Assembly (NCBI GenBank): GCA_016748015.1
Contig: JAAOMT010000226.1
Location: 602,604 to 666,603 of the forward strand
Source: Geosiphon pyriformis
Lineage: Eukaryota > Glomeromycota > Glomeromycetes > Archaeosporales > Geosiphonaceae
Reading direction: 5' to 3'
DNA length: 64,000 nt
The translations under genes were made by a program, and so were the position numbers. Of the stretch, positions 11,512 to 62,702 are shown piece by piece; the first letter of the stretch is position 1, and each line of letters starts with the position of its first letter. The notes under the pieces are model-generated. The model saw only the letters and a list, made by a program, of their open reading frames with translations, was not told where the DNA came from and searched no databases.

Positions 11512-12820
11512 TCTTTTTAATGCTAACTGTGATTCTGAATATCTTTTAGTGTGAAATTCGTTCTGCTATTATTAATAGCTTTTATTGGTGCGGTTTTGTT
11601 AATCAAAATTTTGGTTAAAAATAATTAATAATTAAAATAAATCCCTATATAAACTCATAATGTGAATGTATAGTATTTCGAGGTTTTCTTCCGAAAAAAA
11701 GGGACAAAAAATCGCCAGACTGTTAAAAAAGGGATTTAAAGAAAAAAAAAATTTTTTAACTCCCTGAGCCGAAAAATTAGAAGCGGAGAGAGTGTGTATT
11801 TATACCCATTTGTATGTACCATTTGAGGTTATACAAATCTTCTATGTGGAACCATAACCAAAACAAAAATGATTGTGATGCAATTGTGGAAAACAGACTA
11901 AAAATGCAGATTGTGACACATTAGACATTTTATAGTGTCACTCATATTGCTGCACAATAGTCGCTAGTAAGTTTTGTAAAACTTAATTTATTTAAGCGAT
12001 ATTAAATAGGGCACAAAGTTCTTTGGCTCAAAAAAATTACTAAGAATTATTAAGCTTTCGTGATTAGAATGATTATATGTATGATAATTTCTTAATTTAT
12101 TTTCTTTATATAAATAATAAAAATTAAAGAGAATGTTCATTCATTGACCATTCAAATTGAAAAATAAATGGTTAATATTTCACCTTATAGTATTTTTGTG
12201 GCTCCTTTTCTGTATCGTCGATCGTGAGACACAGACACTGCCTTTTTCCCCAAAAAATAAGAGATCTCCGGAAATAATATTTGTTCACGTGATCACTTGG
12301 TTTCTTATGTTCATTAAATTGGGGCGAAGCAAAAAGACTATCAATAAAAACACTGATAAAACTAAAACTTTAAATATCAATTATTCTGTCCTACCTAATG
12401 AAACACGGGTAATCAATAATTTGATGATGATGATTATGATGATGATGATGATTATGATGATGATTATGGTAACATGGCAACAATGAAAATTATAGTTTTT
12501 ATCAGAAATTGCTTCTTATTATGTATTGAAAATAACCCAAAGAATTAAAATTTATTTATGGAACCATGATTATTCTTGGGTAAATATTTAGATTCGTCGA
12601 TAATAAAATATTCACATTTCATCCAAAACAACTAATATATGAAATTGGAGATATATATATATATTTTTTTTAATTCTCCTTATGTGTTTAAACATATATT
12701 TTGATAAAAAGTTATATTATAATAAATTTCTTCCTTTTAATAAAAAACTGATTCTTGGTAACACGAAGGAAAATTTTAAAAATTGAAAAAGAAAATTTAT
12801 TTTTTTTTATTTAAAAAAAA
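11512..12820. other. Intergenic, promoter side of the TFIIB-like gene
   Basis: AT-rich spacer. TATATAA near 11646 is a possible TATA element for the minus-strand gene, about 135 bp before its ATG. A CACGTG E-box lies near 12284. The frame 12157..12486 (+) owes its length to the ATG-repeat and is not a convincing gene. Confidence 0.4.
12421..12470. repeat. (GAT)n/(ATG)n microsatellite
   Basis: About 16 copies of GAT with ATTATG interruptions. Confidence 0.9.
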
Positions 12821-12927
12821 GTGAAATTATTTAATTTAATTTCAGAAATGCTAAATTGTTAAAAATTTTTGATCTATAATAAATATTAATTAAAAAATAT
12901 AAAAATTTTAATAGTAATTTAAAGTAT

Positions 12928-12933
<6 letters not shown>

Positions 12934-12996
<63 letters not shown>
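12934..12996. repeat. (AAT)n microsatellite
   Basis: About 20 uninterrupted AAT units. Confidence 0.95.
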
Positions 12997-12998
<2 letters not shown>

Positions 12999-13843
12999 GA
13001 TTAATTTTTTTAAATAATTTGTTATTTTTACTTAAAATATAAAATCAAAAATTATTTATATTTATTTAAATTAAATAAATAAAAATACATGTAATCAATT
13101 TAAAACAATTATAAAAATTAATACATTAAAAATTATTATTAATAAAATTATATTATAAATACTTAACTTAATTTATATTATTTAAAAAAACAACTTTAAA
13201 TTTATTTAAATTAATAATAATAATTTATTATGTTAAAACATAAAATAATAATAATAGATTTTATTTAATTATTTTAAAAAACTTGTATATATTTTTTATT
13301 AAATATATATATAAATAAATTACAAAAAAAAATATTGTTTTTAATAATAATAATAATAATTTAATTAAAAATATAAATAAATAAAATAAAATTGTTTGAT
13401 TTTTATTATTAAATAATTTGTTTTATAAATTTGTATAATATAAATAAACAAATATTTTTGGTACAAATAAAAAAATTTTTAAACTTTAAACTTAAAATTA
13501 AAATATTTAATTAAATTATAATTTTTGTTAAAAAAAAATAAAATTATATATATAAAAACTATATCAAAATATTTTAAATTATAATATGACTAGAAAAATA
13601 TCAACAATATAATTTGTAAATTTAATTAAAATTATTAAATAATTTGATAATAATATTTTATTTTATTTTTTTAATATATTGAAATTATTTTTATTTTTTA
13701 TTTTTTATTTTTATTTTTATTTTTATTTTTATTATTTAAAATCTTTTGTTTATTTTTTTTATTTTATTTATTTTATATTTTATATAATAAAATCAATTAA
13801 ATTTTTTAATTTTAAAGATTTATTATTAAAATGAATATAACAT

Positions 13844-13902
<59 letters not shown>
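13844..13902. repeat. (AAT)n microsatellite
   Basis: About 19 uninterrupted AAT units. Confidence 0.95.
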
Positions 13903-13903
<1 letters not shown>

Positions 13904-15593
13904 TAATTAAATAAATAAATATTAATAATATAATTAAAAAAGCAATTAAAAAATAATAACATAACTGAAAAATTTTTAATCTATTAAAATAAATAATGTA
14001 ATTGAAGATAATAATAATATAATTGAAAATAACAGAGAAATAATAATAAATATAAAATTTTTAAACATAATTATTTTTAAAGAACGTAATTAAAGGTTGA
14101 AAAAAATAGCAACTTCATTAATGAAGCAATATTTAACAATATTTTTTTTAAAAAAAAAGAACAGAAAAACAATATAAAAATACTTTATAATACCAACTTG
14201 ATATTATTTTTAATTTATTAGTAGACAAATAAATAATGGTTTTTTAAAAAATAAAACGAATTCAAAAAAAATGATCAAAACAATCTCTTTAAACATTGAT
14301 AGCTAAATTTTAAAATATTGTTTCAATTTATTATAAATTATTATGGAAGAATTGAAATCAATATCATTTTTTAAAAATTTGATTGGTCAATATATTGCTA
14401 ATACAATTTAAATTTACAAAAGTACTAATGCAAAGCATTTTTATGTTGTGTATTTTTTCAAATCCTTTAATAATCAAAATTTTCTTGAATTAATTAATTT
14501 TATTTCTATTAATAAATTTTATTTCTATTAATAAATTTAATATTATTCTAATAGATACTTAAATTTAATGCACTTGAATTGTTTTATTCAGGTATTAATT
14601 ACTCAAGAAATGATAGTTAATATATCAATATCAAAAAAAAATTATTTAATTCACAATTCAATAATTATTTTATTAATTTTAAAACTTGGTTTACAAAACA
14701 TTAATTATTAATTATTAATAATACAATATGTGTAATTGATAAAAATTATGAAATAATTTGTTTAAAAGATAATTATATAATATTATAAGATTACATTAAA
14801 AATTGCAACATGCTAGTTATCATAAAACATATAAAGCTGTAAAGTAATAATTTTATTTAATATTAAATTTAAATATTATATATATATATCAATATTTTTT
14901 TAAGGTTATTACTCAATATAATTGGGCATCTGAAACTTTAGAAAAAAGTTTAATACTACATTTAATATATGTCCAAATTAGTAATGTTATTAACATCAAA
15001 TTCCATAAGAGCGATAATTTTATTAGAATTTATGTTATGTTGCAAATAAGAAGTTTATTATTTTATAGATCGATTTTATAAATATGGACTCAAGATAAGA
15101 TAGAAAATATAAATGAATTGTATATCTGAAATAATTATTTTAGAAAATATTTATAAATATGTTCATTTGTTATAGAGAAACAAAATATATTTTTTAATAA
15201 ATAAAAAGTCACAAAAAATAATTAGTTTACATAAATAGTAAAAGTAAAAATCAAATTGAAAATGATTAGGCTTTTCCTTTCGGTCCCGGCGGTTGTTAAA
15301 TCTGTGAAATTTCTCATATCTAATATTTAATGTTGATACTTTGAATTGATACCATATTATAAAAACTGATACATATTTTGATTTCGTGCTATGACATAAC
15401 ATTTACATGAGTGAAGGAAGGGTAAGACTAGTTACTTTGACAATCTTTGTTGCATTAACGATTGCATCGGAGGCACTTAAAAACTTCATAGTTCCATTTA
15501 TTAAATTAGAATACATTAGGCAAATGAAAAAATAGGTGGGGTAAACAAAATGAGTGGCGACAGGAATAAATAAGACTTATATTTATATTATTG

Positions 15594-16900
15594 ATTTCAC
15601 GGTTTGCAAAGAAAAGTAAATAAAGTTTTTGACAATCAGCTTTTTTAAATGAATATATTACTTTATTAAGCTATTTGCCATTGAAGACCCACATTCTGTT
15701 TAATAATAAAAATATTTTAGATTACACAAAATAAATTAGAAGATAGAAATAAATACACTAGAATATTTTTTTGGTGCTAAATCTCAAAACTCCTTTCAAA
15801 TCTATCTTTTAAATTAGTTCTTCGTCGAGACTTAAAATTTTCTAATGAATCGAAAACCCCAAAAATTTTTGAACTCATTTTAAAATATCTTTAATCTATT
15901 CTTCAATAAAAAATCAAATTCATAATGAATTTAATTAACAAAATAGAGAACAATTTTAACATATATTTTTATTTCATAATTTTCATCTCCTCTAGGTTAG
16001 TATTTGGCGAGAACCCTAAACCACGATCGTAAGTTTCAAGTGTTTTTTGTAAAATTTCTTTATATTAAAAATAACACAAAAAATAACTATAATTTCAAAA
16101 TCTAAAGCGGACATTCAATGGTACTCGTAAATAACCAGTAAGCAATAAAAATTTATCTATATGATCCTTTTGAATTAATAGAAAAAGATCAAAAAAGAGA
16201 AGAATTGAAAATGGGAATTTTAATATTCTTTCTTATAATTAGGTTAATTATGTATGGAGGAAACATAATCGCAGCCAATGAAACCATATTAGAGTACACA
16301 AATGAACTCTGGACACTTAATATGTCAATATCTTTTTCAGTAGATTCACCACCCTGGAAAAAGATTAATGAATTTGAATATTCTAATTTAAACTCAGCTA
16401 TATCCAGTGATCTTATATCTCAAAATCAATCATCGAAACCAAATGTATATACTTGATCCAAAATCTCAAACTTGGTGGATCCCAACTTCATCACCAACAC
16501 ACAAATTTGGATACTCGGCAGTGACTAGTTTTAATGATAATTCAAGCTCTACGATTTTGGTGACTTATGATTTTATAGTGACCTGGAGGACATTTATAAT
16601 TAATAATTCGCCAGTGGCAATAATAGGGTATAGCGCCACCCTATTGAACGATGGAAAAATATATGTTTTTGGTGGATCCTATATCAAAAAAGTTAATCAT
16701 TTATGTGATATGTCTGACATCCATGTATATGATACAAATACAAGAAAATGGACTCGAAAGGTTTTTCATCTTATTAAAGAAATTTTTTTATTAATTTGTT
16801 TTTTAAAGAGGTCAAGCTAATCCAAAAAAATTGATGATATTTTCAAGGTTGGAGAGGGGGACGTGCCACCTCCTCGGCAAATGCATCAAGCTGTTGGTAA
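15594..16900 (+). repeat. Duplicated segment, left copy
   Basis: Direct repeat of 62703..64000. The match begins at TTTCACG and runs through about 600 bp of 5' flank and into the kelch gene. The left copy has two extra stretches (about 18 and 52 nt) near 15739 and 15885 relative to the right copy. Landmarks found in both copies include GGCGAGAACCCTAAACCACG and GATCGTAAGTTTCAAG. The region between this match and the ATG may hold a leader intron (ATC|GTAAGT at about 16030). Confidence 0.9.
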
Positions 16901-18399: not shown

Positions 18400-21300
18400 A
18401 TCAATTAATTTAATAAAATTATTATTGTAATATTACTTTTTTAGAGCATTTTTGAAATATTAATTTCTAATCAATATTAATAAGGCCTAATTAATATATC
18501 TAAATTTTATTTAAAAATCGAATAATATTTAAAATATATTAACTTTAGACAACACCTTCTAAATCAAATAATTGTAAATAAAATTTAAAAGCGTAACAAA
18601 CATAATATTTAAATATTAAATTTTTAATATTAAAATTAAACAAAATTCATCAATGTGTAATGTTATTTTGAAAATAATAATAATTTAATTTAAAAAATTA
18701 TTTATGATATCTTATCTATTGATAATGCATTTCATTATATGTTAAAAATTTAACTGTTAATTATATTTTTTAATAAAATGTAAATTTTTTTTTCATTTTC
18801 ATTGATTATATTGTGTATATGCTATTAATTTTTAGTATAATTGTAATTCTGGTAATATATTATACAGTTTTTTTTAAGTTTTCTATTTTCAATGTAGAAT
18901 TTGCTAATTATTTATTATATATGTATATAAATAAAATATATCTCCAAACTTTATGTTATTGTATATTAAAAACTTTTTTGCAAACTTTTGTTGTTGTATT
19001 AAAAAGTTGCAACCAATTCAATTCAAAAAGTTATAATTTTTTAATAAGTTCAATTTTAAATTAATTGTTTTCCATATTTTCAATATTAGTTTTTACTTTT
19101 TAACTTTTATAATTTTTTATTAGATTTGTAAATTGTTATTTTTAAATAATTAAATTTGAATTTTAATAGAAGTTTGAAATTGGTTTTTAATATTTAAATT
19201 TCAATATTTACCAAATATTAATTTACTTAAATTAATTTTAAAGGACAATTTATTTCAGATTTTTGAATTATAAAAATTTTGAGTTAATAATAATTTTTAA
19301 GTAGAAAAAACAATAATTATTTCAATATTAATTATTTTATTAAAATAATTGGATTATGTTTTTACAATATTATTGTAGAATTTTCAAGTATCAAAAAAAA
19401 ATTTTAATTAATAAATTGGTCATTCATTTAAATTGTCAAAAGATATTGAATATAAATTTTTGAAAAAAAAAGTTTTCTGTATATAAAATTTATATAATAC
19501 TAAATAGTTTCTAGTACTCTTAATTTACATAAAATCTTTGTTCATTTCATAGAACTTTTGTTTGAATACATAAATTTTACACTTTTATAGATTTTGGTGA
19601 ATTTTTTAATGTTACATATTTGATCTAATATATATAATTTACATGTAACTTTTAGTCACTTTTTAAAAATTAAGATTAATTTTGTTTAACACTAGTAATA
19701 ATTAATTAAAAAAAAATAATTGGATAACAAAATTAAATTAATAATAAGTTATGAAATTATATTTTTTTAATGTTTTGGTTATCTAATTTTTATTTGGTAA
19801 TAATACGAACCTCCTTGATATTTTTTGAAGTTAAAAATGTTAAGTTTTATTAAACTATAAAGTAAAACTTAACATTTTTGGAAATTTTACTTCATAACTT
19901 AATTTTTCAGATCTTCAAAAATCTCGAATACTTTAAAGTTTTAGATAAAATATTGACAACCAGGCAATACAGTTATTGTTACAGCTAGTAGAATGAAAAA
20001 ATTTTAATAGACAAATCAATAAATTTGTGGAAAATTAATATTTAATTAAAGTTTATACTGTACATATTTATTGCTTTAAATTCATGAACAAATAAAATAA
20101 AACAACCCATTTTTAGCAATCTTAACTAAAAATCCAAAACACTTAATTAGAATCAATTAAATTCATCATAATAACTATTAAATAAAATTATATATATATT
20201 GACCAAGAAGCATATACTCTTGGAATAATTGTAAAAAAAGTTATTTTTTATAAAAACTGTTTACACTTAGAGAATACTTTGAAAACCACACTTATTAATA
20301 TTGTAAAGTTTGTTATAAAATATGGGATTTTACATCATATTAACTTGTAGAAAAATATTGCCAGAAAAACACAATTGTATTAATACCAAACAAAAAACTC
20401 TCTCACCGAAAATGTCAATATGCTTTACAAAATTTTGAAAGTTAGAAAAGAAACATCTTTTACAACAATGTATTATTATTATTATAAATCTAAAATAATT
20501 TATAAATCGACATCAATTTTTATAAACAGTATTACAAGTTAAAATTTGACCCAAAAATTAGTACAAAATTGTTGAGTTGAAAATAATTTTAAATTGAAAT
20601 TTTACTGAAAAATGACTTTTTAGCCTAAACTGATTGCAATTCTGTAAAAATTTAGATTTTAAAATAAAAACTTGTAATTACAATTGGAATAAAATTAAAT
20701 AACAAAATTAATTTTTTACTATCAAAAAATAATATAAAACGAATAAAAGAATCTGAATCTATTCATTTTATATAAAAAAAAATTATAATTTTTTACATAA
20801 AACAAATGTTTTTATGTTTAACCGTTACTATTATATCAATTTTATCAAAATTAATTATTAAAACAAATAAAATTTTAAATTTGCCAAAAATACATTATTT
20901 CTTGCAATAATTAATAGTATTTAAAATGTTACGTTATATAACTATTACTACTTCTTTAAAAAAACCAAGAAAAAACTACCATACAAATTTTTTTTAACAA
21001 AAATTATTTTGTTACCTAACTCAAATACTTTATCAAAAATTACAAAATAAGTGTTAAATTTAATTTCAGATATTTTAAAGGCGATTTTTTGTTTTATTAC
21101 AAAAATTTTAAATTAAAATTAATTTGAAAATTGATCTTAAAATATAAATATAATTAATAGTTTAAGTTATTTCCAAATTATTATTAGCCAGTAAAAAGTT
21201 AAAATTGGAAAAATTATAAATGGTAAATATACTAAAAAGCTTTAAATAAATTAAAGTTATTCAGAATTAAACTAAACCAAAAAATAGTTTTATAATTTAT

Positions 21301-21490
21301 TTAAAATATGAAATAATTTTAGAAAACCAAAATTATATATAAACTAAAAATACTTTACTAGTTATTAAATTATTAAAAAAAATATGATAAAAAAATATTT
21401 ATTTTGGTGTAAATTAATATTAATATTTTGAGTTAGAATAAAATAGCAAAAGAAAACAAATATTATATAATAAGAAAATAAACAAAGAGA
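18400..21490. other. AT-rich DNA without genes
   Basis: No open frame of note on either strand. The only structure I see is the hairpin at 19833..19879. Confidence 0.7.
19833..19879. repeat. Perfect 17-bp inverted repeat
   Basis: AAAAATGTTAAGTTTTA (19833..19849) pairs exactly with TAAAACTTAACATTTTT (19863..19879) around a 13-nt loop. Shorter flanking GAAGTT / AACTT elements may extend it with mismatches. It could be a MITE-like end or the core of a small foldback element. Confidence 0.7.
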
Positions 21491-21492
21491 AA

Positions 21493-21640
21493 ATTCACCG
21501 AGTGGCTGGTCACGTGTAGAAAGTGCATGATTCGCGCCTAGTTTTAGATCACTTAGTCTGATTTTCTGTGCTAGGTGGCGTTTGGGCCTCACTCGTTAAG
21601 CGTAAATAAAATAAAATAAAATAAAATAAAAAAAATAAAT
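21493..21640 (+). mobile_element. SINE-like retroelement candidate
   Basis: A sharply bounded G+C-rich island of about 105 bp in AT-only DNA, followed directly by a (ATAAA)n-type tail at 21603..21635, as at the 3' end of non-LTR elements. Near its 5' end GTGGCTGGTCACGTG loosely resembles a Pol III A box and GATTCGCGCC, about 25 nt on, a B box. No target-site duplication is clear. A short minus-strand frame covers it but is not a gene I recognise. Confidence 0.4.
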
Positions 21641-24600
21641 TAAGAATTTATTGTATGCAATATGATTCTTGTAAATATTTCAATTACTATTTTTTTTAAA
21701 AGAATTTAAAAATAAAAAAATAGTCTATAATATTAACAAAAATAATACAGCTGCTACAATTTTATGCTTTATATTGGTGCTTCTTAAAATTTAATAACAA
21801 ATATCATTTATATTTTTCAATAAATTTTTATTCAATACACTTTTCAAAAACTACAAATACAAATCAAAAAAAAGGGAAAATAAGAATTAAAGAGTATCTA
21901 AGAATCAAAATTATTAATAAAACTAAAAACTAAAAAATTAAACTGTAATAATATGTTAAATAATTTAAAGTTTTTTTATTTAAAATAATATTAATATTTA
22001 TCAACATTTGAATTTTACTTTTAACTGTTAAAAAAGTTTTTAAAAGCAAAATTATTATTAAATATTAAAAATGCTATTTTAGCCATATTAATAACAAGAT
22101 AAAATTAAATTAAACTTTAAAAAAATTAAAAAGTGAAAAACTTTTTAATTTTTTAAAATAAAAACTTTTTTGTATATATATTTTTTACATTTTTATTACA
22201 ACCAAAATAAAAAATAAAAAGAGAACAACTCATTTTTTCACTTTTGTTTTTAATTATAATACTAATTAAAGGCTTTTTAACAATTAAAGCAGCTAAAAAA
22301 TGGTTTTCCAAAACAGTTTTCTCAAGTAATAAAAAAACAAAACACTTTTTCATTTTTGATTAAGAGTTTTTTCTTTTTCAAAAAAATTTTAAAGTAGTTT
22401 ATTAAAAGTTGTTTTAGTGTTGTCGCTATTACTGCCAAAAGTCCTAAAACTTTTAACCACAAACTAGTAGCCAAACTACTGTTTTCTTATTTTTTTTACT
22501 GCTGTTTTAATAATAATATAAACTAAAACAGCCAAAAAACAAACTTCTTTAAAATACCAAAAAAATAATTTTTTTGGTATTTTTAAAGCACTTTTATTAT
22601 TTTAAAGTCTTTTTTTAAAAAATAAAATATTTGTTTTTTTGTTTTTTTGGTGGTTTTATTAATTTTGTCATATTAGTATTAATTATTACCAGTTGTAAAA
22701 ACAAAACAAATTATGTTTTTATATGTATTAAATTAATAATATAAAAATTAAAGCACTTTTATTTTCTTTGTTTTTTAAAATATTATTAATTTTAATGGTG
22801 TTTAAAAAACAATAACTAATTTTTAAACATTTATTAAGTAAATAGTTTTGTTTTTAATATTTAATATTACTGTAAAGATTTCATTCTTGCTGTTATAACT
22901 TTTTATAAAATCTTTTTAAGCATTTTTTTCAACAACATTAAAAAATTTTTGGTATTTTTGGTGATAAATTAAAGTTTGCTAGTCTGTAATAATATGTTGT
23001 TATATATTTAAAGTTCTAAAAATACATAAGTAAAATTTTTCAAAGATTTAAAAATTTATTTTTTTTCTTATTTATTTATTTTTTAATTAATTTTGTAAAA
23101 TATATTGAATAAATATTATGTAGAAACGATATTTAATATGGAATTATAAAAATATTAATATAAAGCATATAATTATAATAGCTATTTTTTGTTAACAATA
23201 TAAACTTTTTTTTTATTTTCAGATTTTTTTGTTATTTTTTAAAAAAAATAATAACTAAATTATTTATAAAACTGATTTTACATACAAATTTAATTTGTTT
23301 ATTAAGTTAAATTTATTTTTTGATTATTTTTTTTGTTGTTTATTAGCATATTATTTTGATCTATAATATTATTAAAAAAATTTTATTATTATTTTTAAGT
23401 TTAAAAAATCTTTAATAATAATAATATTAAATCTAATATTTTACAAAAATATTATATTTGGTAAGAACTTCTAAATATTAATATTGTTATAAGTATAAAA
23501 TTTAAATTATCTGGTTTTTAATATAAAACTGTTTTTTCTGGTCTTTTAAAGTCTTTTTTTAGGTTTTTTATTGTATTTAAAGGTTTTGTAAACTAATTTG
23601 TTAGCTTAATATTTTATGTTAAAACTATTGTTTTTTTTTGTTTTTTTTAATATTGTTGCTAATAAAAATATTTAAATTTAAGTTACAGACTTTTTTAACT
23701 TGATAAAATTTGTAATTAATTTAATAAAAATTTAAAAAAGTTTATTGTAATGCTATTAAATAGCAGTTGTTTTTTAATTGCTTTGATTTTTTAGGTTATT
23801 TAAATAGCAATAATAAAGATAGCTTAAAAATTTAATAATTTTTATAATAATAGTAAGTTAAAACTGGTTTTAATGTATTATTTTAACTAAAAAAAAACTT
23901 TTAGCTAAAAATATTTTTTTTAATAGTTTAGACTATTTGTTTTAAAAATATTTAAAAACTTTTTTAGTTATAATACTTTTAATTAATATAGAAATAATAA
24001 TTGTTTTTTATTTTTGTTATGGTTATAAAAATAAGAAAAAAAGAGTTAGTTTTAATATTTTTATTTTTATATATATGTTTAATTACTTTATTAAAATAAT
24101 TAATTATTAAATTTATTTTATTTTATTGTAATCTTTTATTTTTATTATAATTTATGATTAAAAATTTAATTAATTTTTGAATTAGCAATAATTTTAATCT
24201 AATTAATATTAAGTATTATTATTTAATTCAAAATTTTTCAGTTTATTTTAAGAAGATTTTACTTTAATATTTATTTATAAATATAAAATTTAATTATAAA
24301 AAAATTATTACAAATTTTAATTAATTAATATTAATAATATTATATCAATTATACAAGTTTTTAAGATGGCTAATTGGTATTTATAAATATATTGAAAAGA
24401 AATTGGTTGGTTATAAATATACTTTTATTTTATTTATTTAACAATTAAATAATAAATATATATATTTAAAATTTTAGGATTTTTTTATATAATTAAATAC
24501 AAAGTTTACATTTTTGTAATCAAGTTAATTGTAATTTGTCAACATAAAAAAACATGTAAAAACAATTAAAGCTTATTTATTTACAATTATCAATTGATCA

Positions 24601-58997: not shown

Positions 58998-60855
58998 GCT
59001 GGCTTTGATGATTTTGAGATAAATATTAAAAAAAAATGGGACGAATGTTTTGCCAAAGTAGAATCTAAAAAAAATTTCTATATTTGCTTCGACTCTTAGT
59101 ATTTTTTGATTCGAATAAGAATGAAGAAAGAGGAAACTCCAGTTTCCTTTATACTGTTCCCTTATCGTTTTTCATTAAATATATCAGGACATGGATTCCA
59201 TTATTATTACAAATATAAGGATAAATCTTGTGATAAATCATTTGAAGATGCGCCTAAAATCCTTTTGATCAATCGAAAGATTTAATTAACAGTAACTTGG
59301 CACTTGTAAAGCTTAGAGCTTCTTTCTTTCAAAAATTTATCAAAAACTGCAATAATTTTGACAACAGGCCATTGAAATGTTCTAAGTTTGATAAAGTTCG
59401 ATTCTCCGGGGCTTGAATCTTTGACGATCCACTAGAATCATTTCTCAAATTTTTACATTTTGACGCTGTTTGGTTTAAATAAATAAAGCAAATTTGAAAT
59501 GGCCAAAATCGTGAACACCCATTTTATTTCTTAATCTGTAAAAATTTCTTTTTCAATAGGCTTCTTTCAAAAGTTGATTTTGCTTAATTCAATTTAATCT
59601 TTCGCTTTCTTTAAAAACTGACCATGGTCCAATACACCTTGTTTAGGTCAAGAATGTGAAAACCTTAAATGATTTTACTCATGTCAAAATTACTTTATAG
59701 CTTTTCTCTATATAAGCGAAACTATATTTTCCAGGGTAGAAGGGATCATCTGCTTTTAGATATCAGAAATCGGTTTTTTATTGTAATCTGATATTTTTTT
59801 ATTTCTATTTGGAAAAGCAAGTAATATTTTCAAAGCGAGCGAATTTGTGAATTTAAAAATCACAACGTTATCTTCAATTGAGTAAATTCCCATTTAAAAA
59901 TTTCATTCTATCTCAATATTAAAAACCCCTAAGGTACCCTCGAAATAATTGATATTTAAACGATGTTCTACACAAATTTTTTATCATTTAAATTTTATGA
60001 ACAATCTATATAGATTTCAAAATTTTCTAGGGCACATACCCATAATGCAAAAGATTATTATGGTGTGGCCAGGTATCGCATCCAGCGAGCCTATATAAAG
60101 AGTGAAAATGGGAGAGTTAGATATTTACGCAATTAAAGAAAATATATGAGATTTATATCAAGCAACCAAGGTCAAAAAGATATTCGAAGGAAATCTTAGT
60201 TTAAAAACATAGGAATCCTCTTTCTAATCAAAATCAAAACTTTTGAAATGATTATTGGATCAAATAGATTCGCAAAAAAGACTAAACGATTTACTAATGA
60301 GATATTCACGTTCCGTCTTTGTTAGACCAAAGGAGCTACCAAACCACTCAAGTTTTTGATCTAAAACTAGGACTACATCCTCAAAGCATTTCTGAATTAA
60401 CTTTTTGAGTAAATACAAATTCTTTATTGAAAAAGCTGGTTAGAAAAGGCCTCGCTAAAAATTCAAATATAAACATTGAGTAGAAATATTGGATTTTTAT
60501 CTTTGATATTACAAAAATTTTCTATATATTGTCTATAAAAATGTCGATTGAGAAAAATATAAATACATTTGTCACTAATATCTTTTAGGCACCAAATAAA
60601 AAATTTCGTTTCCACCATTGAAATTACATGAACAAGAAAATAAATCTTTAGCAGCATCTTTGTCGACAACAATAATCTCATTATTATCTATTTATAAAAT
60701 TTGCAACCCAAGTATTATCAAATATGATTTTTCTGGAAATCAATTATAAGCTTTTAAATGATGGCCATGTATAAGAAGAATCTATAAATTGAATAGAAAA
60801 GGAGAACATGTGATACTGATTTAGTTTAGGATTAGATTGAATTTAGGTTTTTTGC
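58998..60855. other. Spacer upstream of the small secreted gene
   Basis: Has the promoter of the secreted-protein gene, a lone TATATAAAG on the plus strand near 60092 without a gene after it, and a minus-strand open stretch at 60573..60692 (DKDAAKDLFSCSCNFNGGNE) that may be an orphan exon. The 72-codon frame 60463..60681 is in another register and not convincing. Confidence 0.4.
59129..59153 (-). promoter_or_regulatory. TATA box with adjacent inverted repeat
   Basis: Minus-strand TATAAAGG (59146..59153) beside GGAAACT-CC-AGTTTCC (7-bp arms, 59132..59147), 135-155 bp before the ATG of the small secreted protein. The position fits a core promoter; the inverted repeat could bind a dimeric factor. 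Confidence 0.45.
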
Positions 60856-60890
60856 AATAATCAAGCATTGCATAGCAATGCTTGATTATT
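60856..60890 (-). repeat. Perfect 16-bp hairpin, 3-nt loop
   Basis: AATAATCAAGCATTGC (60856..60871), loop ATA, GCAATGCTTGATTATT (60875..60890), with no mismatch. It lies just past the 3' end of the Fanzor/TnpB-like remnant. Confidence 0.95.
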
Positions 60891-60904
60891 TCCTACATGG
60901 TTAC

Positions 60905-61150
60905 TGTAGGACCAAGAAAAAGATCTCTCAACCGACATTTTCATCTCTATCCATCACAACTCCAGCAGTTATAAGCTGGTTCTTTAGATGTTGCCACATC
61001 TACTACAAATCTTGGATGTGTAAGCTTTGTTCTGAATAATAACACAACTCCTTAATTCCTTGGCCTTGCTGATCAGGCATTGTCAAAAGCAATAACTCAC
61101 TCAAAAAAGCATTTTTCAACAGTTTTCATGTAATCTTCTTGTCTTACAAT
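60905..61150 (-). pseudogene. Fanzor/TnpB-like RNA-guided nuclease, C-terminal remnant
   Basis: On the minus strand, in family order: VIAFDNA (about 61080-61100), like the RuvC-II surroundings (a conserved acid is expected here in TnpB); AYTSKICSRCGNI (60987..61025), the TSKxCSxCG that opens the zinc ribbon of TnpB and Fanzor proteins; AYNCWSC (about 60959-60979), the second CxxC; and MDRDENVG (60931..60954), the DRDxN of RuvC-III, ending in EIFFL after a TGA. The pieces lie in three frames, with indels of one to a few bases and stops, and nothing is left upstream of about 61.2 kb. Fanzors are the eukaryotic relatives of IS605/IS607 TnpB, carried by transposons, and occur in fungi. The remnant is dead. 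Spacing of the motifs is near normal, which makes chance unlikely. Confidence 0.68.
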
Positions 61151-61199
61151 TTACCATGTTTGACACATTAAAAAGAAGAATGACAATCGTATCAAATTT

Positions 61200-62702
61200 G
61201 CAGGTTAAAATTAATATCTGACTTAATGTTATTGGAAAAAAACATTCTTTGTATTAAAAACATAAACATAAAAATTTATTTTTGATGACCATAATATTAG
61301 CATTTAGAAAAAGTTGACTTAAAAATATTTGCTAAGTTAATTAACAATAAATTTTTTTATAATCATATAAAATAAAGAAACAAAATTAGATATTAGATAT
61401 TAAATAATAATGCAATATTTTATAAGTTTAAAAAAATAAATTTACAATTTAAAACAATTGCTTTTAAAATTAATTATACTTTAAACAATATTTAAAATTA
61501 TGTAAAAATTATTTTATTTTAAAGTTAAATCCTAAAATGCTTATTTGAATATTTTGAATAAAATATTTGTTAAATATTTTTCTTAATTATGTATTTATAT
61601 TGGCACTTTATCAAATTAAAATAACTTGATTAAAGTAAGTTAAATATATTTATTATTATTATTATATATATAATTATTTAACAATTAATTTAAAACTTGA
61701 AACATATTTTATTAAAATTATTTGAATAATTTAATTTGTTAAATTTACCAATTTTTAGCACTTAATTGATTTTAAGTGTATAAATATAAAAATTTTATCA
61801 GATTAAATTTCAACATACATAAACAAACTTCTATTTTTAAATATACATAATTACAAAAATTAATATTGCTAAATAAATTTATATAAAAATTTCTTTAATA
61901 TAACATAAATTCACATATGTTTTTATGTTAAAACAGCTAAAAAGATATTTTGTTATTTTGTTATCAATAAGTTTATTTTATATATTTTTATTTATGTTAT
62001 TAATAATGTATGCTAAATTAATAATAAAAAGTATAATGTTAAACTTAAAAGTTTTAAAAGTGGTTACAATCTAGAATCTTATTTAAAATATTAATAATAA
62101 ATGAAGTTAAATAGGTTTTTTACTCAAAAATAAATTGACAATATTGCTGTTTTTTTATATGCTGTATTAAATAATGTAAACTGAATTGTATTTTATTTTT
62201 AGTATTTTATATATTAATAATATTATGAAAATAAAAATATTTTAATCTTGTTTAAAATTGTTAAAGGCTTTGACTAATAATTTATAAGCTGTTTTGTTAA
62301 TATGTTTTACGAATCTATTTATTTGTAAATAATAAAACAAATATAAAGATTTTTCTATTTAGTTTTTTGGTTAAAGAATAATTTAATTAAAATTAATAAT
62401 ATTTTTAAAAATAAAATTCATTATAAATTTCGCTTTTGCTTTTTAAATAATTTTAGCTATAAGTTATTTTGTAAAATAATTTTCTATAACTGCTATATAA
62501 CAATTTTTTAGCTTTAATTAGCAAAAATTTAATTAAATTAAGAAGTTTTATGGATTTTGTTTTTTAACAAATGTTACAAGAATGAATATGTTTTTTATAT
62601 ATAAGATTAAAAATCATGTTTTCAAGTTTCCAAACTAGTTTTTCAATAATTTTTTTTGAATTTTTAAAGTTTAATAATAATAAAGTATTCTTTACATCAA
62701 TG
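61200..62702. other. AT-only DNA
   Basis: Almost pure A/T with no open frames; it ends abruptly at the start of the duplicated segment. Confidence 0.7.

Follow-up and report, generated by a model that had tools for sequence, protein, structure and literature searches.

Remnant of a probable IS607-type transposon with a Fanzor2-like nuclease, from a decayed multicopy family in a eukaryotic genome

The 64-kb stretch of DNA analyzed here (the window) has BTB, Kelch, and Sel1 among its genes, and its base composition is uneven: positions 12001-16000 and 20001-24000 have only 16% G+C, compared with 19-37% in the other 4-kb stretches. On its minus strand lie the frame-shifted remains of a TnpB/Fanzor protein's C-terminal RuvC/zinc-ribbon end, together with the right end of the element to which they belonged (Table 1). 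A first-pass annotation of this DNA had recognized such a protein end, broken into three frames with stops, at positions 60905-61150, and three-frame translation of the minus strand bears this out. The relic does lie there, but its real extent is longer. The consensus of its family (described below) matches the window from 61208 to 60854 at the DNA level (73.6% identity, E = 2.8e-66, blastn) and from 61232 to 60981 at the protein level (E = 2e-18, tblastn); the nhmmer alignment of the relic is L009/1549-1900. The DNA of 60780-61260 matches a second genomic copy at 75% identity (E = 1e-60), and a search of the genome with the relic DNA returned 42 rows, two of them the window itself. We found no further copy of the family in the 64-kb window, where the next DNA match of the consensus, palindrome and relic aside, has an E-value of 0.38. 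The best match to tnpA in the window reaches only E = 0.62.

The first-pass annotation had proposed comparison with TnpB/Fanzor zinc-ribbon profiles as the check on its reading. In a genome-wide profile search, PF07282 gives a significant match at the relic, above its curated cut-off (Table 1). When the relic is read through, with X placed at stops and the frames joined by hand, the score is 38.3 bits (E = 1.5e-9). The match is specific, and the assignment to a TnpB/Fanzor protein stands.

Table 1. Features of the relic and of the element's right end (window coordinates)
Feature	Position	Strand	Evidence
Relic: RuvC-II to RuvC-III, zinc ribbon, and element right end; 5′-truncated	60854..61232	-	blastn, tblastn, nhmmer
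VIAFDNA, out-of-frame reading of the WAHYRFRQRL region	61076..61096	-	translation, consensus
Zinc ribbon, Cas12f1-like_TNB (PF07282), with internal TGA and TAA	60978..61088	-	E = 4.1e-5, 30.9 bits, curated cut-off 26.3
Codon of the displaced RuvC-II Glu (E_alt): Lys in relic, IIQNKAYTSKIC; Glu in consensus, IIQNEAYTSKTC	61026..61028	-	translation, consensus
CWSC, second zinc-ribbon cysteine pair (consensus CRNC)	60956..60967	-	translation, family alignment
MDRDEN, RuvC-III motif (consensus IDRDEN)	60937..60954	-	translation, consensus
Perfect palindrome, 16-bp arms and 3-nt loop, inside the right end, beside the coding relic	60856..60890	-	sequence, fold
Degenerate outermost right end, CAATCTA vs. 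family CAATCCATCCG; putative boundary	60833..60855	-	alignment, right-end pattern

The translation gives VIAFDNA, TSKICSRCG, CWSC, MDRDEN, and EIFFL in that order, in three frames and with stops. Three of the motifs first reported, TSKICSRCG, CWSC, and MDRDEN, are genuine. TSKICSRCG lies inside IIQNKAYTSKICSRCG, which starts at 61040 on the minus strand, and holds the first cysteine pair of the zinc ribbon; the relic still shows a C4 zinc ribbon followed by RD (CSRC...CWSC...DRD). The frame changes between CWSC and MDRDEN because an 8-nt deletion lies between them; the deletion adjoins CWSC, although two similar 8-mers there leave its precise position ambiguous, and the same 8-nt gap is aligned in two other copies (L010 and L017). 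VIAFDNA, in contrast, had been taken for a RuvC motif and is rejected as one: it is an out-of-frame coincidence, since in the coding frame of the family consensus the same bases give WAHYRFRQRLISKAEELG. The consensus, too, gives IIAFDNV from these bases when read in the wrong frame.

A consensus of the 3′ part of the family was derived from 45 stretches of 42 loci, and one of the whole element from 88 aligned stretches. Left out of the family alignment were a second family (family B: L004, L039, and L040), duplicate loci (L058, L060, and overlapping loci), and L057. The family consensus is open for 332 aa up to the C terminus and contains SIDPGVRTPFTWYSP, NEAYTSKTCSQCG, CRNCG, and IDRDENGARGIFL (majority of the 88 stretches); IDRDENGARGIFLRAL is likewise present in this frame. 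Its PF07282 score is 75.5 bits. An N-terminal consensus piece, joined from two frames, matches the TnpB helix-turn-helix profile HTH_OrfB_IS605 (PF12323) at 28.9 bits (cut-off, 21), and NF040570 scores 90.1 bits, under its cut-off of 100. A genome search with PF01385 gave no candidate. Among solved structures, the best relative in a PDB search with the consensus is the TnpB-like protein L79 (E = 7.8e-24), which we take to be a mimivirus protein; the same search with the 228-aa frame of copy L022 gave no relevant match.

Two features of the consensus bear on the kind of nuclease. The RuvC-I motif of the family contains DPG (SIDPGVRTPFTWYSP), a place before which the window relic is truncated, and in NEAYTSKTC a Glu occupies the displaced RuvC-II position, immediately ahead of the zinc ribbon. 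The canonical RuvC-II place falls within IVIPPFEV of the consensus, where we read Pro from the sequence, with a Glu three residues on (PPFE); read in the same way, this place is Asn in family B and in L79. The combination of DPG with a Glu shifted in this way is given as the fingerprint of Fanzors and bacterial pro-Fanzors in the accessible text of PMC10711439. Fanzors are RNA-guided nucleases with kinship to CRISPR enzymes. The family is best read as Fanzor2-like and carried by an IS607-type element, and its nuclease, when alive, may have performed RNA-guided cleavage.

The first-pass annotation had also linked the relic to transposons, and the whole-element consensus makes this link specific. 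The element is ~2 kb long (copies, 1.7-2 kb). Between its conserved ends it carries, in order from the left, tnpA for an IS607 serine recombinase and a tnpB-like Fanzor2 gene, and its right end forms a hairpin when folded. Its 5′ frame, which is frame-shifted in the consensus, matches the IS607 transposase model NF033518 with E = 1.7e-25 (89.7 bits, under the cut-off of 110). Searched against the genome, NF033518 matches at 30 places, none of which reaches the cut-off. At 13 of these, tnpA lies 59-708 bp upstream of a Fanzor place on the same strand (expected, 0.03), 17 of the 30 overlap 5′ DNA matches of the family, and 17 of the 30 have no scored Fanzor place downstream. The serine recombinase profile PF00239 yields three genome places from six candidates, and all three overlap family 5′ DNA matches. 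Because IS607 tnpA relics lie inside the same elements, we classify the element as IS607-type, with its own serine recombinase beside the Fanzor2-like nuclease.

Some of the tnpA relics merit separate mention. One (C318:771674-771880, plus strand) is on the same contig as the window, ~105 kb past its right end, with no Fanzor place scored adjoining it. Two others near contig ends (C397:2330-4450 and C310:449900-450857) are identical in 95 bases around the left end and have the same match statistics; the pair may be either a duplication or assembly redundancy.

Patterns made from the element ends match the genome 14 times for the left end and 31 times for the right end (up to three mismatches), and reversed controls match nowhere. 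The element ends CCG...CCG, which is compatible with a GG/CC core. Target duplications were sought in 10 two-ended copies; truncated or unclear-end copies (among them L012, L018, L020, L022, L025, L028, L038, C397, C370b, and C352) were left out, and the left end of C306 was set by eye. For lengths k = 2-12 these copies show no consistent excess of identity over cross-paired flanks, in line with what IS607 elements should show. Mean flank identity at k = 2, 4, and 8 is 0.35, 0.375, and 0.362, against 0.239, 0.272, and 0.257 in the control (values compared without a significance test), and at k = 9 it is 0.267 against 0.280. Individually, the flanks of L067 (AGTTAATA/AGTTGAATA) form a near-match over 8-9 bases that is one base off, and those of C306 share 2 bases.

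These data bear on a reading in which the nuclease traveled as a Fanzor1 passenger inside a MuDR-like eukaryotic cut-and-paste transposon, of the sort found in Rhizopus, Phycomyces, and Mucor, rather than as part of an IS607 element. MuDR-type Fanzor1 elements with 9-bp duplications are known from these three genera (PMC3627910, in the text available), and the host gene content looks fungal here, with a chitin synthase match (PF03142) of 821 bits besides the BTB, Kelch, and Sel1 genes of the window, although PF03142 also matches in four bacterial controls. The L067 near-match could be such a duplication, and the ends share an inverted similarity of ~40 bp, subterminal in position, whose score of 42 exceeds that of every one of 500 shuffles (mean 19.7, maximum 37). 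However, the 10 two-ended copies as a group lack the 9-bp duplication, the element has an IS607 tnpA, and its protein has the N-terminal helix-turn-helix of TnpB type. None of the Fanzor1 PDB codes named in the accessible part of PMC11423790 is among the 28 PDB sequences at E ≤ 1, whereas L79 is. A MuDR-like origin is very improbable, and we reject it on the absent 9-bp duplication and the presence of tnpA.

Movement by an HUH enzyme, in a Helitron2-like or IS200/605-like element, is more improbable still. The family right end does fold into a stem (z = -3.99), with a weaker hairpin at the left end; a consistent target duplication is absent; and the first look at the genome gave 148 candidates for the 3′ part against 85 for the 5′ part. 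This 3′ surplus may instead reflect better-conserved coding DNA at that end, and the tnpA relics inside these same elements are of serine type. The IS607-type reading has counter-evidence of its own: NF040570 and NF033518 score below their cut-offs, the ends have the inverted similarity, 17 of the 30 tnpA places lack a scored Fanzor neighbor downstream, L067 has its near-match, a Glu lies near the canonical RuvC-II place, and the window copy itself has no tnpA.

The palindrome in the window (Table 1) folds with z = -4.66, and only one of 200 shuffles folds as well. RNAalifold predicts no pairs on 18 right ends, so the folding of single sequences is the basis for any RNA role of the hairpin. 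Quasi-palindromes can become perfect through template switching, without selection. That the palindrome gives rise to a small RNA with a present role, as part of a domesticated or still expressed fragment, is scarcely credible despite the perfection of its arms and its rank among the shuffles, given that 60000-62000 contains no Rfam match, that template switching offers another route to a perfect palindrome, and that the relic beside it is 18.2% diverged from the family consensus, with stops, frameshifts, and the loss of an active-site residue (Lys for the displaced Glu). According to the available text of PMC10711439, the right end feeds the guide-RNA scaffold in IS607 TnpB and Fanzor elements, and by analogy the palindrome may mark the site of such a scaffold hairpin (reRNA/omega-RNA).

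The window copy itself is a fossil, inert now and without an active nuclease: nothing upstream of RuvC-II remains, and it has no tnpA. Very probably, what remains is the 3′ part of a single copy of an IS607-type transposon that had two genes, one of them for a Fanzor2 nuclease.

A search of the 124.7-Mb genome with the 332-aa consensus, in which 121 of 576 candidates were scored, gave 143 matches in 91 places, a list that does not include the window relic. Only 15 of the 143 matches are free of stops, and the longest of these, from a reading of the table by eye, covers 119 of the 332 residues. Among these matches there is no place with stop-free pieces spanning the whole query. An intact family copy, sought by genome-wide profile and consensus searches, was not found and is rejected. 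The suggestion of the first-pass annotation that the genome may still carry live copies is therefore not supported, so few and so short are the stop-free matches; with 121 of 576 candidates scored, a live copy of divergent or multi-exon form is unlikely.

The pattern of decay differs before and after the copies were made. Codon positions were compared in 31 stretches of the main subfamily and in nine stretches of eight loci of a second subfamily (five of the 45 stretches were dropped). Against their own consensus, copies of the main subfamily mismatch at 0.117 of first, 0.110 of second, and 0.122 of third codon positions, and since mismatch is even across codon positions, these copies decayed neutrally. 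The two subfamily consensuses differ at 25, 15, and 63 of 146 first, second, and third codon positions, respectively (dN/dS = 0.09), so the nuclease was under strong purifying selection in the copy-producing lineages. The nuclease was selected while the element moved, and the copies were neutral afterwards.

Family B (L039, L040, and L004, on C354, C114, and C250) is a second Fanzor family in the genome. L039 and L040 have 82% DNA identity over 2.08 kb and one stop each, in different places within the last 200 aa; their protein identity to the consensus of the first family is 48% and 45%, respectively. The DPG place reads QP-V in L039, and the right end of L040 ends in the same 11 bases as the first family, CAATCCATCCG. 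Three relic copies, L012, L018, and L028, have common flanking DNA, perhaps a segmental duplication that took the relics along; L012 and L028 also contain frames for Gly/Asn-rich repeat proteins of secreted appearance.

The data show directly in what order the genes stand, what the ends and the Fanzor motifs are, and that the protein was once under purifying selection whereas the copies decayed neutrally. How the element moved can be sketched from what is published or familiar about IS607 and Fanzor systems. TnpA would have excised the element as a circle and reinserted it without a target duplication. The right-end hairpin would have formed part of a guide-RNA scaffold, with flanking host DNA supplying the guide, and Fanzor2 with its guide RNA may then have cut the emptied donor site, where repair restored the element. 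Cutting of the donor site followed by restoring repair is a model that comes from work on TnpB. Afterwards the window copy was truncated on its 5′ side, and both its reading frame and its displaced Glu were lost.

Relatives in bacteria and archaea (80 loci listed, including Cyanobacteria, Chloroflexi, and Synergistales) have 29-58% identity in the best segment. DPG with the displaced Glu occurs in 27 of the 27 viral and bacterial relatives taken, a figure that for the Glu is partly so by construction because that residue was written into one of the two scan patterns. In a tree built from nine of the 13 viral loci, two of which served as outgroup, and from 21 of the 80 bacterial loci, of which one did, with no Fanzor1 rows, family A (that of the window relic) and family B fall among both viral and bacterial rows, and nearer kinship to neither is supported.

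The consequence for the window as such is modest. A wider reading, for and against which we find ourselves evenly balanced, is that this probably fungal genome was colonized by an IS607 element of bacterial or viral derivation that kept both its recombinase and its RNA-guided nuclease, reached about a hundred copies with the nuclease strongly purified across two subfamilies, and then became extinct there. If so, the family would richly document, in fossil form, how an insertion sequence of prokaryotic type with two genes multiplied in a eukaryotic nucleus, and it would suggest that Fanzor2 aided the spread of its own copies. A large dead IS607-Fanzor2 family that retains readable ends and both genes, and in which selection during life is cleanly set apart from neutrality after death, offers a natural record of whether spreading required the nuclease.

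High copy numbers have been described for Fanzor1, as in the fungal MCi, ROr, and PBl and the algal CRe-1 (150 loci) and CMe-1A (~150 copies). These elements share with ours a transposon-borne protein with RuvC and zinc ribbon, but they ride on Helitron, MuDR, Mariner, and other elements and not on IS607 (PMC3627910, as far as its available text goes). Saccharomyces kluyveri offers a parallel for the recombinase: there, as presumably here, a horizontally acquired IS607-family serine recombinase multiplied in a fungal nucleus, and the accessible part of the report counts six recombinase genes and mentions no Fanzor partner (PMC2715888). Bacterial IS607 pro-Fanzor TnpBs have the same DPG and displaced Glu but are prokaryotic (PMC10711439, available text). 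Our literature search, which left most subscription journals outside, found no Fanzor paper for Glomeromycota or Mucoromycota and no IS607 for mycorrhizal fungi; Fanzor2 in fungi has already been reported (PMC10432273, in the part available).

The closest known systems are the eukaryotic and viral IS607-type Fanzor2 elements, such as ISvMimi of mimivirus and ACa-1/-2 of Acanthamoeba, which likewise pair a serine recombinase tnpA with Fanzor2 and lack a target duplication (PMC3627910, text available); L79, our best solved relative, agrees with this kinship. Bao and Jurka describe these elements, in the accessible text of the same paper, as without terminal inverted repeats, whereas the ends here carry the ~40-bp inverted similarity. 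For each cellular species, their 2013 table gives, in the portion available, one Fanzor2 family or two; here, in contrast, 91 places, none of them intact, were scored in one cellular genome. Since high-copy Fanzor1 and fungal Fanzor2 were already known, what the present family adds is the IS607 two-gene form at such a scale.
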